This document shows positions 1,337-24,416 of a DNA stretch of 64,000 nucleotides, piece after piece. The notes beneath the pieces are model-generated. The model did not search any database, had not been told where the DNA came from, and saw only the letters and a list, made by a program, of their open reading frames with translations. Positions within the stretch are counted from its first letter, which is position 1. The number at the start of each line of letters is the position of its first letter. This DNA comes from Streptomyces sp. NRRL F-5135 (lineage in GTDB: Bacteria; Actinomycetota; Actinomycetes; Streptomycetales; Streptomycetaceae). The translations under genes were made by a program, and so were the position numbers. The stretch lies in contig NZ_JOHR01000007.1 in NCBI RefSeq assembly GCF_000719775.1, positions 1 to 64,000 of the forward strand, given 5' to 3'.

Positions 1337-2842
1337 TCAGCTCTGGCCGCCGGCCAGCTTCTCACGCAGCGCGGCGAGCGCCTCGTCCGACGCCAGGGCG
1401 CCGGAGTTGTCCGCCGACTCCGAGGAGTACGAACCACCCGAGGCGGCCGGAGCGCTGCCACCGCCGGCGGGCGCGCCCGCACCCTCGGCAGCGGCGGCCT
1501 CGTCGGCCTCGCGGGACTTGATGACCTGGGCCTGGTGCTGCTCGAAGCGCTGCTGCGCCTCCGCGTACTGGCCCTCCCACGCCTCGCGCTGGCTCTCGTA
1601 GCCCGGCAGCCAGTCGTTGGTCTCGGGGTCGAAGCCCTCGGGGTAGATGTAGTTGCCCTGGTCGTCGTAGGACGCGGCCATGCCGTAGAGCGTCGGGTCG
1701 AACTCGACCGAGGCCGGGTCGCTGCCGAAGGACTCGTTGGCCTGCTTCAGCGAGAGGCTGATGCGGCGGCGCTCCAGGTCGATGTCGATGACCTTGACGA
1801 AGATCTCGTCGTTGACCTGGACGACCTGCTCCGGGATCTCCACGTGGCGCTCGGCCAGCTCGGAGATGTGGACCAGGCCCTCGATGCCCTCGTCGACGCG
1901 GACGAACGCACCGAACGGAACGAGCTTGGTGACCTTGCCCGGGACGACCTGACCGATCTGGTGCGTGCGGGCGAACTGCTGCCACGGGTCTTCCTGCGTC
2001 GCCTTCAGCGACAGGGAGACACGCTCGCGGTCCATGTCGACGTCCAGGACCTCGACCGTGACCTCCTGGCCGACCTCGACGACCTCGGAGGGGTGGTCGA
2101 TGTGCTTCCAGGACAGCTCCGAGACGTGCACCAGACCGTCGACGCCGCCGAGGTCCACGAACGCACCGAAGTTGACGATCGAGGAGACGACGCCGGACCG
2201 GACCTGACCCTTCTGGAGGGTCGTGAGGAAGGTCTGGCGGACCTCGGACTGGGTCTGCTCCAGCCAGGCACGGCGGGACAGGACCACGTTGTTGCGGTTC
2301 TTGTCCAGCTCGATGATCTTGGCCTCGAGCTCCTTGCCCACGTAGGGCTGGAGGTCGCGGACACGACGCATCTCGACCAGCGAGGCCGGCAGGAAGCCAC
2401 GGAGGCCGATGTCGAGGATGAGACCACCCTTGACGACCTCGATGACCGTACCGGTGACGATCCCGTCCTCTTCCTTGATCTTCTCGATCGTGCCCCAGGC
2501 GCGCTCGTACTGGGCGCGCTTCTTGGAGAGGATGAGACGGCCTTCCTTGTCCTCCTTCTGGAGAACCAGGGCCTCGATCTCATCGCCCACGGCGACGACC
2601 TCGTTGGGGTCGACGTCGTGCTTGATCGACAGCTCGCGGGAAGGGATGACGCCTTCGGTCTTGTAACCGATGTCGAGCAGGACCTCGTCCCGGTCGACCT
2701 TCACGATGACGCCGTCGACGATGTCGCCGTCGTTGAAGTACTTGATCGTCTCGTCGATCGCGGCGAGGAAGGCTTCCTCGTTACCGATGTCGTTGACCGC
2801 AACCTGCGGGGTGGTGGCGGTGGTCTCGGTGCTGCTCGTCAT
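1337..2842 (-). CDS. rpsA: 30S ribosomal protein S1
   Basis: Ribosomal protein S1, 501 residues, binds mRNA on the small ribosomal subunit and helps initiation. Four S1/OB-fold RNA-binding domains run in tandem over roughly residues 35-365, visible as repeated blocks such as GAFVDLGGVDGLVHVSELSW and FGAFVRVDEGIEGLVHISE, each followed by V.V.VIDID/LDVD and RISLSLK strands. The protein is shorter than the six-domain E. coli S1, as usual in actinomycetes, and ends in an Ala/Gly/Ser-rich tail. I chose the ATG at 2842 (MTSSTETTATTPQVAV), the conserved Streptomyces N-terminus, with GGAG about 11 nt upstream. The gene has its own terminator and diverges from a methyltransferase gene. High expression is expected. 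Confidence 0.97.
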   Translation of the reverse strand: MTSSTETTATTPQVAVNDIGNEEAFLAAIDETIKYFNDGDIVDGVIVKVDRDEVLLDIGYKTEGVIPSRELSIKHDVDPNEVVAVGDEIEALVLQKEDKEGRLILSKKRAQYERAWGTIEKIKEEDGIVTGTVIEVVKGGLILDIGLRGFLPASLVEMRRVRDLQPYVGKELEAKIIELDKNRNNVVLSRRAWLEQTQSEVRQTFLTTLQKGQVRSGVVSSIVNFGAFVDLGGVDGLVHVSELSWKHIDHPSEVVEVGQEVTVEVLDVDMDRERVSLSLKATQEDPWQQFARTHQIGQVVPGKVTKLVPFGAFVRVDEGIEGLVHISELAERHVEIPEQVVQVNDEIFVKVIDIDLERRRISLSLKQANESFGSDPASVEFDPTLYGMAASYDDQGNYIYPEGFDPETNDWLPGYESQREAWEGQYAEAQQRFEQHQAQVIKSREADEAAAAEGAGAPAGGGSAPAASGGSYSSESADNSGALASDEALAALREKLAGGQS

Positions 2843-3198
2843 GTGGGAAAGGGCTCCGGTTACGGACATTGAGTCGTAGGTACTGCTACGCCGTGAGCCC
2901 GTATCGCCTCTGCAGAAACCGGACAGCCTAGGAAGCACCGGCCCAACGTGGTGGGGAGTGGCGCCTCGACAACCGAGGGGTCTTACATACAGATGCGAGC
3001 GCGGCTGCTACGTCTGAGGCGCGCAAGCCCGCAGCGCAACCTTTAGCATACGGGGGCAGCCGGGCACGGTCAATGCGCGAAGGCGCACACCCGGGGCGGA
3101 ACCTCACATAACCGGCACAATCCGCGTTCGATGAGGCCACGGCAGAGCTCTGCCGCGCCGTCACCGGCGCTCCCGATTCAACCACCTGCCAGCAGACT
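2843..3198. promoter_or_regulatory. Divergent intergenic region, rpsA / methyltransferase
   Basis: 356 nt between two divergent genes must hold promoters for both. It includes the least GC-rich stretch nearby, around 2985-3055. I see no confident -35/-10 pair, no RNA gene and no small coding sequence with a ribosome site. Confidence 0.4.
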
Positions 3199-21740: not shown

Positions 21741-21813
21741 ACGTACGGAACGAGGACTCCTACCTCAACCTCAACCTCTACCTCTAGCCCTGGCCCTGGC
21801 CCTGGCCCTTGGC
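21741..21813. repeat. Hexanucleotide repeats flanking a stop codon
   Basis: Two adjacent microsatellites meet at the stop of the response-regulator gene. On the coding side, repeats of GGCCAG (three copies) encode the Gly-Gln tail. Directly after the TAG stop, on the same strand, are repeats of AGGTAG/AGGTTG (four copies). Slippage here would change the C-terminal tail by Gly-Gln pairs. Confidence 0.7.
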
Positions 21814-22452
21814 AGCCTTCTTCTCGTTCGCGTCCTCGATGACCGCCTCGGCCACCTGCTGCATCGACATCCGCCGGTCCATCGACGTCTTCTGGATCCA
21901 CCGGAACGCCGCCGGCTCCGACAGCCCGTACTGCGTCTGCAACACCGACTTCGCCCGGTCCACCAGCTTCCGCGTCTCCAGCCGCTGCGCGAGGTCCGCG
22001 ACCTCCTTCTCCAGCGTCCGCAGCTCCGCGAACCGCGACACCGCCATCTCGATGGCCGGCACCACATCGCTCTTGCTGAACGGCTTCACCAGGTACGCCA
22101 TCGCCCCCGCGTCCCGCGCCCGCTCCACCAGGTCCCGCTGCGAGAAGGCGGTCAGCATCAGCACCGGCGCGATGGACTCCTCCGCGATCTTCTCCGCGGC
22201 GGAGATCCCGTCCAGCACGGGCATCTTCACATCGAGGATCACCAGGTCCGGCCGGAGCTCCCGAGCCAGCTCCACGGCCCGCTCCCCGTCCCCGGCCTCA
22301 CCGACGACCGCGTAGCCCTCCTCCTCGAGCATCTCCTTGAGATCGAGCCGGATCAGAGCCTCGTCCTCCGCGATGACGACACGCGTCGTCAGCGGCGGAA
22401 CGTGGGACTTGTCGTCATCGTCGGCGGGCTGGTGCGACTCGGGGGCGGTCAC
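21784..22452 (-). CDS. pdtaR: ANTAR-domain response regulator (PdtaR-like)
   Basis: A 222-residue response regulator whose output domain binds RNA rather than DNA. The receiver domain (about residues 22-140) has the acidic pair EDE, phospho-acceptor Asp74 in LVILDVKMPVLDG, the Thr/Ser switch in MLTAFSQ and Lys in VKPFSKSDV. A short coiled coil (RFAELRTLEKEVADLAQRLE) leads to an ANTAR domain (TRKLVDRAKSVLQTQYGLSEPAAFRWIQ, then MQQVAEAVI), as in M. tuberculosis PdtaR, which acts by antitermination. I chose the GTG at 22452 because GAGGAG lies 8 nt upstream; the ATG at 22488 has no ribosome site. The partner kinase gene is not adjacent. Confidence 0.93.
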   Translation of the reverse strand: MTAPESHQPADDDDKSHVPPLTTRVVIAEDEALIRLDLKEMLEEEGYAVVGEAGDGERAVELARELRPDLVILDVKMPVLDGISAAEKIAEESIAPVLMLTAFSQRDLVERARDAGAMAYLVKPFSKSDVVPAIEMAVSRFAELRTLEKEVADLAQRLETRKLVDRAKSVLQTQYGLSEPAAFRWIQKTSMDRRMSMQQVAEAVIEDANEKKAAKGQGQGQG

Positions 22453-22506
22453 GGGGGCTCCTCGTTCAGACAGGGTGCTGCTTCCCATGAGCGTACCGAG
22501 CTGCGG

Positions 22507-22512: not shown

Positions 22513-22550
22513 AAGCCCGAGCGGGGGACCCCAATCCCTTGCTTTCGGAG

Positions 22551-22625
22551 GCCCCAGTACTCCAATTGGTTAGAGAGGCCGCTCTCAAACAGCGGACAGT
22601 GTGGGTTCGAATCCCACCTGGGGCA
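22551..22625 (+). tRNA. Atypical tRNA, anticodon CAA (Leu-type), class I variable loop
   Basis: A 75-nt cloverleaf. The acceptor stem GCCCCAG pairs perfectly with CTGGGGC, with discriminator A. The anticodon stem CCGCT/AGCGG is perfect with loop CTCAAAC, giving anticodon CAA at 22586-22588 with U33. The T stem GTGGG/CCCAC is perfect with loop TTCGAAT. The D arm has G18G19 but only about three good pairs (CTC/GAG), and A15 with T48 preserves the Levitt pair. The variable loop is 5 nt (ACAGT). CCA is not encoded. The anticodon predicts Leu (UUG), but bacterial tRNA-Leu normally has a long class II variable arm, so the identity is uncertain. A LAGLIDADG-domain gene follows. Confidence 0.8.
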
Positions 22626-22734
22626 CTTTCCTTCGTTTCGAAGGTCGCAAAGCTACTGTACGGCTGTCACTGAATCGGGTGAATCTGCCTCGGTTTACCC
22701 GTCTCAGGAGGCGCCTTCGATCAAGGTCGGCTTT

Positions 22735-23517
22735 GTGTACGACCTCCACACGCGCCAACGAGTGCTTGCCCTGGTCGCCCAGGGGCGCAGCCTCAATGCC
22801 GTGAGCAAGGAAACCGGAATATCGCGGGCGGCCATCCGCTCGTGGCAGATCCGTCCGGAACCCCTCCCGCGCGCTGTCGGCCGCTCGGCCCCGTGCCCAA
22901 GGTGCCGCCCCGAGCCTGGGGCGCCGGCCGCTACCGCGTCGTACTCCTACCTACTGGGCCTCTATCTGGGCGACGGCTGTATCAGCCCGCACCCTCATGG
23001 AGGCGCGTACCTGCGCATCGCCTGCGCGGACGCCTGGCCCGGCCTCATCGACCGATGCCGGGAGGCCGTCGCGGCCGTCCGCCCGGGGGCCCAGGTATCC
23101 GTCGTACCAAAACAGGGGTGCGTGATGGTGACCAGTTACGGGCGCCACTGGCCGTGCCTGTTCCCGCAGGACGGGCCGGGCAGAAAACACACTCGGCCCA
23201 TCGCTCTCGAGCCCTGGCAGCAGACCGTCGTGCAGGCGCACCCGTGGGAGCTGCTGCGTGGCCTGGTCCACTCCGACGGTTGCCGCAGCATGAACTGGAC
23301 CACGCGCGTCGTGCGCGGCGAGAAGAAGCGTTATGAGTACGCGCGCTACTGGTTCACCAACGTCTCCGACGACATTCGGCGGCTGTACACCGACACCCTC
23401 GACGCGGTCGGTGTCGAGTGGACGCAGTGCACCCGTGCGGGCAGGCCTTACAACGTCTCCGTCGCCAAGCGCGCCTCCGTCGCCCTCATGGACGCCCACA
23501 TCGGCCCCAAGCACTGA
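22735..23517 (+). CDS. HTH-LAGLIDADG protein (homing-endonuclease-like or WhiA-like regulator)
   Basis: A 260-residue protein. Residues 8-40 form a helix-turn-helix resembling resolvase/transposase-type HTH (RSLNAVSKETGISRAAIRSW). One CPRC motif lies at 54-57. The rest looks like a LAGLIDADG fold with two motifs: LLGLYLGDG (74-81, Asp80) and LRGLVHSDG (174-182, Asp181). Both keep the acidic residue that binds the catalytic metal in homing endonucleases. WhiA joins the same two domains in the opposite order. GTG 22735 is the first standard start, but GGAGG lies 23 nt away; an in-frame ATC at 22720 has ideal 8-nt spacing. Rare codons (ATA, CTA) suggest transfer. It lies 110 nt downstream of an atypical tRNA gene. 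Nuclease versus regulator cannot be decided from sequence. Confidence 0.75.
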   Translation: MYDLHTRQRVLALVAQGRSLNAVSKETGISRAAIRSWQIRPEPLPRAVGRSAPCPRCRPEPGAPAATASYSYLLGLYLGDGCISPHPHGGAYLRIACADAWPGLIDRCREAVAAVRPGAQVSVVPKQGCVMVTSYGRHWPCLFPQDGPGRKHTRPIALEPWQQTVVQAHPWELLRGLVHSDGCRSMNWTTRVVRGEKKRYEYARYWFTNVSDDIRRLYTDTLDAVGVEWTQCTRAGRPYNVSVAKRASVALMDAHIGPKH

Positions 23518-23627: not shown

Positions 23628-24416
23628 TCATGCGCCGAGGTCGGGTGGAGTCATCGTGAAGCGCGCGTTCACCTGCGCGTAGACCGTCTGCCGCTGCGGT
23701 TCGAGGTCGAGTGCGGGCGCGGCGCCGCCTGGTTCGGCGGGACCTCCGTATCCCCTGGTGCGCAGTCCTCCGGGGGCGGGCGGGAGGCCGTACCCCTCGT
23801 TGTTCTCGGCTCCGAGGTCGGCGAGTTCGACCAGGGCGGCGAGGCGGGCGCCGAGGGCCGCGGCGTATTCGCGGGCGCGCTGGACGGCTTCCTGTACGGC
23901 TTGGCGGCGGGCTTCGCCGTGGGCGGGGGAGTCGGGGCGCAGCGCCCACCAGGGTCCGTTGACGCGGGTGAGGTCGAGGTCGGCGAGGCGGGTGGTGAGT
24001 TCGCCGAGGGCGGTGAAGTCGGTGAGTACGGCGGTGACGTGGACGGTGCCGTGGTAGGCGCGGACGCGCTCGTTCCGGCCGTGCCTGGTGAGTTCCGGGC
24101 TGATGGAGAAGGCTCCGGTCTCCAGTTTCTCGACGGCCGTTCCGTAGGACTTGACGAGGTCGAGGACGAAGGCGTTGCGCCGGGTGAGGTCGTCGAGGGC
24201 GGTGCGCCGGTCGGTGCCCCGGGCGCTGACGGTGATGCCGATCCTGGCGATTTCCGGATCGGCTTCGAAACGTGCGTGGCCGCGGACGGCGACCCTGGGC
24301 GCGTCGGGGGTGCCGTAGGGGACGTACGGGGAGGTGCTCGTCGTCGTGTGTGTCGTCGCGGGCGTCCCGTCCAGCGGCATGCCGGCGGTCGGTCCCGTGC
24401 TCTCGTCGGTGGTCAC
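23628..24416 (-). CDS. SIMPL-domain (DUF541) protein
   Basis: A 262-residue protein of the SIMPL/DUF541 family (YggE-like; function poorly defined, linked elsewhere to outer-surface assembly or oxidative stress). The domain spans from VAVRGHARFEADPEIARIGITVSA through NAFVLDLVKSYGTAVEKLETGAFSISPE to RRQAVQEAVQRAREYAAALGARL and ends in a YAQVNARFTM strand. No signal peptide is visible, unlike periplasmic members, so it is probably cytoplasmic. I chose the GTG at 24416 because GAGGGAG lies upstream; the open frame beyond it reads through a tandem repeat. It is divergent from the 5'-nucleotidase gene. Confidence 0.85.
   Translation of the reverse strand: MTTDESTGPTAGMPLDGTPATTHTTTSTSPYVPYGTPDAPRVAVRGHARFEADPEIARIGITVSARGTDRRTALDDLTRRNAFVLDLVKSYGTAVEKLETGAFSISPELTRHGRNERVRAYHGTVHVTAVLTDFTALGELTTRLADLDLTRVNGPWWALRPDSPAHGEARRQAVQEAVQRAREYAAALGARLAALVELADLGAENNEGYGLPPAPGGLRTRGYGGPAEPGGAAPALDLEPQRQTVYAQVNARFTMTPPDLGA

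Follow-up and report, generated by a model that had tools for sequence, protein, structure and literature searches.

A putative free-standing LAGLIDADG homing endonuclease tied to tRNA-Leu genes in Streptomyces and other actinomycetes

Described systems closest to the one considered here include SegB, an enzyme of the GIY-YIG class whose region is reportedly inherited preferentially, according to a 2008 SegB paper, and the LAGLIDADG enzymes I-DmoI and I-Tsp061I, which are intron encoded and have rRNA genes as targets. WhiA is a regulator without catalytic acids, and cleave-and-rescue gene drives, which are synthetic and Cas9 based, cut an essential gene and carry an uncuttable version of it. 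According to excerpts of the respective papers, phages T4 and T6 encode SegB within a tRNA cluster and the enzyme cuts inside tRNA genes (PMC13096335), mycobacteria have tRNA clusters, thought to be phage derived, that contain HNH homing endonucleases as well as a tRNA-Leu(TAG) with a short loop (PMC6582537), and the decay of homing genes after invasion is documented (PMC13405050). Here, we analyzed a 64,000-nt stretch of Streptomyces sp. NRRL F-5135 (GCF_000719775.1, contig NZ_JOHR01000007.1, positions 1-64,000; hereafter the window), in which a gene for a helix-turn-helix (HTH)-LAGLIDADG protein follows a tRNA-Leu(CAA) gene. Judged from sequence comparison, the protein is probably a free-standing homing endonuclease with an N-terminal HTH, belonging to a tRNA-Leu-tied family that spreads by intronless homing together with its linked tRNA allele. 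Members share the LAGLIDADG fold, conserved acids and a fixed position at tRNA-Leu; the gene is absent or decayed in many genomes that keep the tRNA, and a block of ~1 kb is exchanged at this fixed address. No description of a tRNA-Leu-bound HTH-LAGLIDADG family appeared among the matches listed in the open-licence PMC literature.

The protein family and its tRNA-Leu address

An earlier note on this DNA had described an N-terminal HTH and two LAGLIDADG-type motifs; these were found, as was the LAGLIDADG fold, whose absence would have spoken against the note. The LAGLIDADG part starts at residue 67, after the HTH at residues 4-39 (model secondary structure), its two LAGLIDADG helices stand in an alpha-beta-beta fold, and the motifs read LLGLYLGDG and LRGLVHSDG. 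Taken alone, the window protein matched Pfam weakly and under the curated cut-off (HTH_28 at residues 7-37, E 3e-4; LAGLIDADG_3 at residues 71-99, E 0.007); at E<=0.001, HTH_23 was matched by 56 of 70 homologs and LAGLIDADG_3 by 49 of the 70. Asp80 and Asp181, one at the end of each motif, are intact, as the note had stated, and both are present in 70/70 of the wider homolog set; among full-length Streptomyces copies, Asp80 occurs in 86/87 and Asp181 in 87/87. With a dN/dS of 0.18, the gene is under purifying selection. Its open reading frame stands alone and has a start of its own, the tRNA 108 bp upstream is uninterrupted, and the gene lies in neither an intron nor an intein. The rare codons once offered as a sign of foreignness proved thin evidence, amounting to one ATA and one CTA, with a third-position GC content of 0.854 vs 0.862-0.936 in five other window genes. 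Most Streptomyces copies bear the label 'helix-turn-helix protein' or 'transcriptional regulator' and some that of 'transposase', and some mycobacterial copies already carry the name LAGLIDADG homing endonuclease.

The protein was matched in 146/199 Streptomyces genomes, and a profile search of the class was positive in 93/394 genomes and 29/137 genera. The tRNA link was counted over four overlapping locus sets (30, 60, 40 and 80 loci; total 210). Rather than lying at random sites, the outcome that would have spoken against the note, the homologs adjoin tRNA-Leu in 209/210 loci, the remaining locus being a contig end, and the association is far stronger than had been proposed. The nearest tRNA-Leu reads CAA in 205 loci, 168 of them without the long variable arm (short-arm) and 37 with it (long-arm), and UAG in four, which form a single family whose close homologs are named as Mycolicibacterium. 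Gaps between gene and tRNA range from 27 to 188 bp, with both on the same strand in 202/209. The family thus occupies one site type across relatives, with some sites empty, as befits a homing endonuclease. The protein gene is present twice, in tandem, at G036:C1:2578967-2580538, G048:C50:6964-8542, L240 and L242; in G036 and G048 the tRNA-adjacent copy is the one less similar to the window protein.

No match to the protein was found in public phage records or plasmids. Five clear relatives on viral contigs (30-34% identity) all adjoin or overlap tRNA-Leu, that of L510-L512 being UAA (two distinct tRNA alleles) and that of L517 CAA; the weak LAGLIDADG matches L518 and L519 (26% identity), with no tRNA in the fetched stretch, were excluded from this group. 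Comparison of L510 with L512 gives 95% identity for the proteins and 98% for the leader past 40 bases, but only 61% for the tRNA in between. In L516, an HTH-LAGLIDADG frame (2447-3184) reads through a complete short-arm tRNA-Leu(CAA) at 2573-2646 (R1, 63.3 bits), and just upstream lies a 5' tRNA-Leu-like fragment (2380-2405) with 19/26 matches both to the contig's own tRNA and to a neighboring tRNA-Leu; the order is 5' tRNA-Leu fragment, HTH, complete tRNA-Leu(CAA) in the open frame, LAGLIDADG domain. As a separate observation, cyanobacterial and Streptomyces phages carry tRNA-Leu (UAG, GAG, CAA) without the long variable arm (L359 211-288, L360 601-676, L362 1189-1263, L363 574-650); the short-arm model scored three of these four at 67-72 bits, and other tRNAs tested from their own genomes at up to 61.6.

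That the protein might act on RNA, as a maturase or a tRNA-Leu nuclease, would suit a fold common to LAGLIDADG maturases (bI3 maturase, bifunctional I-AniI) and a link that concerns one tRNA species. We regard this as very improbable, given that the tRNA lacks an intron and is read whole by ARAGORN, that an HTH with both metal-site acids better suits a DNA enzyme, and that tRNA-Leu(CAA) is retained in protein-free genomes.

Exchange of the tRNA and protein gene between species

Distances between protein genes correlated with those between host markers at only 0.07 and 0.17, compared with 0.47 for marker vs marker (134 loci); the N-terminal 140 residues gave -0.07 to 0.08 and the C-terminal half up to 0.27. 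In 39 genomes, polA distance correlated at 0.80 with that of the gene for the ANTAR response regulator left of the tRNA, which we take to be pdtaR, at 0.37 with livF and at 0.28 with the protein gene. Across 133 loci, the tRNA changes arm type 21 times on a pdtaR+livF tree (shuffle mean 20.7) and four times on the protein-gene tree; in the 39 genomes, there are 13 changes on the polA tree (shuffle mean 12.2), 12 on a polA+livM+livK tree (shuffle mean 13.5) and two on the protein-gene tree, with 0/1000 shuffles as low. Arm type therefore tracks the protein-gene tree and not the host tree. Clade 1 of the protein comprises 64 short-arm loci and one long-arm locus, and clade 2 six short and 19 long, although a Fisher p for this association among related genomes is indicative only.

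The exchanged unit is visible where hosts are close. Between L086 and L100, flanking 150-bp segments are mostly 0.95-0.99 identical and the tRNA and gene start 0.45-0.55, with a 76-nt tRNA in one and an 87-nt tRNA in the other. Means over 15 disjoint close pairs, defined by close hosts and protein genes >15% apart (44/53 close pairs qualify), gave the same block edges. The tRNA and protein gene are thus often exchanged between close species as a ~1-kb block within similar flanks, usually starting near the start of the ANTAR regulator gene and sometimes with a long-arm and a short-arm tRNA trading places; this joint swapping is what is new here. We do not claim a constant 3' breakpoint lying 60 bp ahead of the stop: it looked exact in four pairs, but only 6/15 showed a strict step.

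Loci without the protein show what the gene enters and leaves. No match was found in 53/199 Streptomyces genomes; sites were fetched from 35 of these 53 and from one weakly matching genome, 36 in total, and 12 of the 53 lie outside this sampling. tRNA-Leu(CAA) is kept at 35/36 of the sites (28 short-arm, 7 long-arm), C-terminal remnants of the protein gene persist at 6/36, and fragmentary protein matches also occur among Streptomyces genomes. Six further no-match Streptomyces loci each have tRNA-Leu(CAA). In other families, the protein-free pdtaR loci, taken as the 60 best matches to the window PdtaR among 132 genomes with a match, have it within the fetched stretch in 60/60 (48 short-arm, 12 long-arm). 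Because protein-free loci keep the tRNA, the tRNA and regulator are an old neighborhood in which the protein gene comes and goes. Both spread off the host tree (13 vs 2 arm-type changes) and decay after fixation (the 6/36 remnants), as known for homing genes, are therefore seen.

In lineages carrying the protein, tRNA-Leu(CAA) is unusually diverse. Without it, short-arm tRNA identity averages 0.92 at a PdtaR identity of 0.80-0.90 (30 pairs) and 0.95 at 0.90-0.97 (68 pairs); with it, the same bins give 0.80 (44 pairs) and 0.81 (27 pairs) in other families, and Streptomyces averages 0.83 in either bin, the pairs not being independent. Below a PdtaR identity of 0.80 the groups are alike (0.77-0.78 without vs 0.79-0.81 with protein). 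Where the protein is present, tRNA identity shows no trend with host distance, as would follow from an exchange of alleles.

Under intronless homing, the enzyme would cut, within or close to the tRNA-Leu gene, those chromosomes that have a different allele or lack a copy, and repair from the donor would bring in the donor's tRNA-Leu along with the endonuclease gene. Differing in sequence, the linked tRNA would escape cutting; it would still serve UUG (leucine), so that the recipient would survive, and repeated rounds could yield the tRNA diversity of enzyme-carrying lineages. A bolder and more tentative proposal, which we hold possible though not probable, is that the block is a natural cleave-and-rescue element, cutting an essential tRNA-Leu gene, carrying a recoded, uncuttable and functional tRNA-Leu, and spreading between species so as to drive rapid tRNA evolution, including exchange of long and short arms; tRNA-Leu(CAA) would, on this tentative proposal, otherwise be more conserved. 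The linked tRNA in the window is structurally sound and is the only CAA tRNA found in its genome, and L516 may show the cleave-and-rescue logic most plainly.

Several observations weigh against homing. Transfer of a 1-kb block is also within reach of ordinary homologous recombination. The polA correlation of the protein gene is not much under that of livF (0.28 vs 0.37 in the 39 genomes), so that livF taken by itself offers little contrast. Arm type goes with the protein clade, but among short-arm loci the tRNA distance shows no correlation with that of the protein gene (rho about 0; 0.03 with the host), so the fine coupling of tRNA and enzyme that would be expected were immunity of the linked tRNA required was not seen. 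The long-arm share is not clearly lower without the protein (12/60 in other families, 7/35 in Streptomyces) than with it (13/35 and 20/90). In the comparison of tRNA identities, the close protein-free pairs probably come from few genera.

Some of these points would also suit a passenger at a hot locus, where some other pressure, such as escape from tRNA-cleaving toxins or phage defences, puts balancing or diversifying selection on the tRNA-Leu(CAA) alleles, and ordinary recombination swaps the block with the LAGLIDADG gene just riding along. The lack of correlation in short-arm loci is in keeping with it, as are both arm types in protein-free genomes (the 48 short and 12 long of other families); the occurrence of short-arm tRNA-Leu genes in phages means that horizontal sources of tRNA exist. 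We nevertheless think it unlikely: protein-free lineages show less tRNA diversity between close relatives, the conserved acids and dN/dS speak for selection on what the protein does, and the tRNA-Leu link reaches phage relatives at about 30% identity as well as UAA and UAG tRNAs.

Were the homing reading correct, a homing endonuclease family would live on bacterial chromosomal tRNA-Leu genes with neither intron nor intein, and this selfish family would shape tRNA evolution through much of a bacterial class. It would provide a concrete case of tRNA alleles acting as exchangeable cassettes and make selfish DNA as a driver of tRNA structural change testable. The finding also bears on two working assumptions, namely the 'regulator' labels of the copies and the long arm as a rule for tRNA-Leu.

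The tRNA-Leu(CAA), its flanks and neighbors

The tRNA-Leu(CAA) is the sole tRNA detected in the window (ARAGORN, Rfam), and at gathering scores Rfam matched nothing else there. The genome was searched for a further tRNA-Leu(CAA) of normal form, and none occurs among the 68 RF00005 matches (assembly of 116 contigs); the other leucine tRNAs (UAA, GAG, CAG, UAG) have 85-88 nt. The earlier note's 'odd tRNA' holds by textbook standards, insofar as the long variable arm is absent, although the tRNA is no exception: tRNA-Leu of this form is common in actinomycetes and, occurring in 48/60 loci without the protein, is not by itself the oddity. For the same reason, creation of the short arm by the endonuclease as an escape form was rejected as its origin, those 48 loci lying beside the ANTAR regulator; an earlier protein-free sample (L420-L449), having been selected by model score, was excluded from this comparison. 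In several actinomycete genomes, not only CAA but also UAA tRNA-Leu is of the short-arm form (CAA in L407 and L413; UAA in L406, L408-L411 and L414-L416), and genome G384 has short-arm GAG, UAG and CAG tRNA-Leu (L412, L417, L419).

The short-arm form is selected as a tRNA, because across 39 sequences drawn from several families pairing holds in 98.5% of stem cells, 14/20 pairs vary on both sides, and the anticodon, A14 and A73 are invariant. Excerpts of work on leucine identity in Escherichia coli describe A73, not the arm or anticodon, as decisive, with tertiary contacts important (PMC9976931). Reassignment of UUG by the short-arm tRNA was rejected from TTG codons in columns >=80% conserved: leucine columns held 65/75 in short-arm and 22/27 in long-arm loci, and in a second gene set 31/50 and 20/42 TTG codons fell in such columns, the remainder in mixed ones.

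Similar short motifs of the CCTT..TTTCG.AGG type flank the window tRNA on both sides (22537-22550 and 22630-22644; Table 1); such motifs are conserved around Streptomyces short-arm tRNAs and missing after long-arm ones. A CCTT-N6-8-AAGG trailer follows 130/171 short-arm and 0/40 long-arm Streptomyces tRNA-Leu(CAA) and 0/35 tRNAs of other families. Within one genome, leader and trailer copies resemble each other no more than they do across genomes (10.58 vs 10.57 of 15 matches; shuffled, 7.83). The earlier note had left open a regulator, and a WhiA-like regulator or tRNA-Leu-specific factor, one that binds the tRNA locus or the tRNA and, as a host function, controls how the tRNA is expressed or matures, would share its fold with WhiA. 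We consider such a host function distinctly unlikely, since the protein has no match in 53/199 Streptomyces and 301/394 class genomes, with the tRNA kept where examined, its acids are conserved in 70/70 homologs, and the trailer is missing from the 40 long-arm and 35 other-family tRNAs, many or all of which lie beside the protein. Between the note's two options, a free-standing endonuclease fits better than a regulator, because the acids are conserved, the gene is often missing or decayed while the tRNA stays, and alleles are swapped between species.

Table 1. Features of the window at the tRNA-Leu(CAA) locus
Feature	Position	Strand	Detail or basis
HTH-LAGLIDADG protein, putative free-standing homing endonuclease	22735..23517	+	GTG start, 260 aa
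N-terminal three-helix HTH, residues 4-39	22744..22851	+	model secondary structure; Pfam HTH matches
Asp80 codon, first LAGLIDADG motif	22972..22974	+	sequence
Asp181 codon, second LAGLIDADG motif	23275..23277	+	sequence
tRNA-Leu(CAA), 76 nt, without long variable arm	22551..22626	+	ARAGORN, Rfam
Trailer motif CCTTCGTTTCGAAGG 3' of tRNA	22630..22644	+	sequence comparison
ANTAR response regulator (presumably pdtaR); conserved left neighbor	21784..22488	-	Pfam
SIMPL-domain protein; right neighbor in many loci	23628..24392	-	Pfam

Comparison with known systems

WhiA shares the LAGLIDADG fold, but in WhiA this domain, which aligns from residue 15, precedes a C-terminal HTH, and the window protein has the opposite order, as the earlier note had recognized (HTH at 4-39, LAGLIDADG from 67); unlike WhiA, the window family also keeps the acids, is tied to tRNA-Leu and is missing from many genomes. 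With I-DmoI and I-Tsp061I, the window protein has in common a monomeric two-domain LAGLIDADG fold with acids at equivalent places, from which it differs by its extra HTH and the lack of an intron. Synthetic cleave-and-rescue drives work on the same principle as the one suggested for the window block, for which natural cutting and immunity are only proposed. Like the mycobacterial clusters, as far as excerpts of their description go (PMC6582537), the window family would place homing endonuclease genes among horizontally acquired actinobacterial tRNA genes; those, however, are extra tRNA clusters with HNH enzymes, whereas the window family combines a core-genome tRNA-Leu locus with a LAGLIDADG protein. 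SegB resembles the window protein in being encoded by a free-standing endonuclease gene beside tRNA genes, but lies in a phage tRNA array, whereas the window family consists of putative endonucleases of the HTH-LAGLIDADG type, mostly chromosomal and each beside one tRNA-Leu gene.
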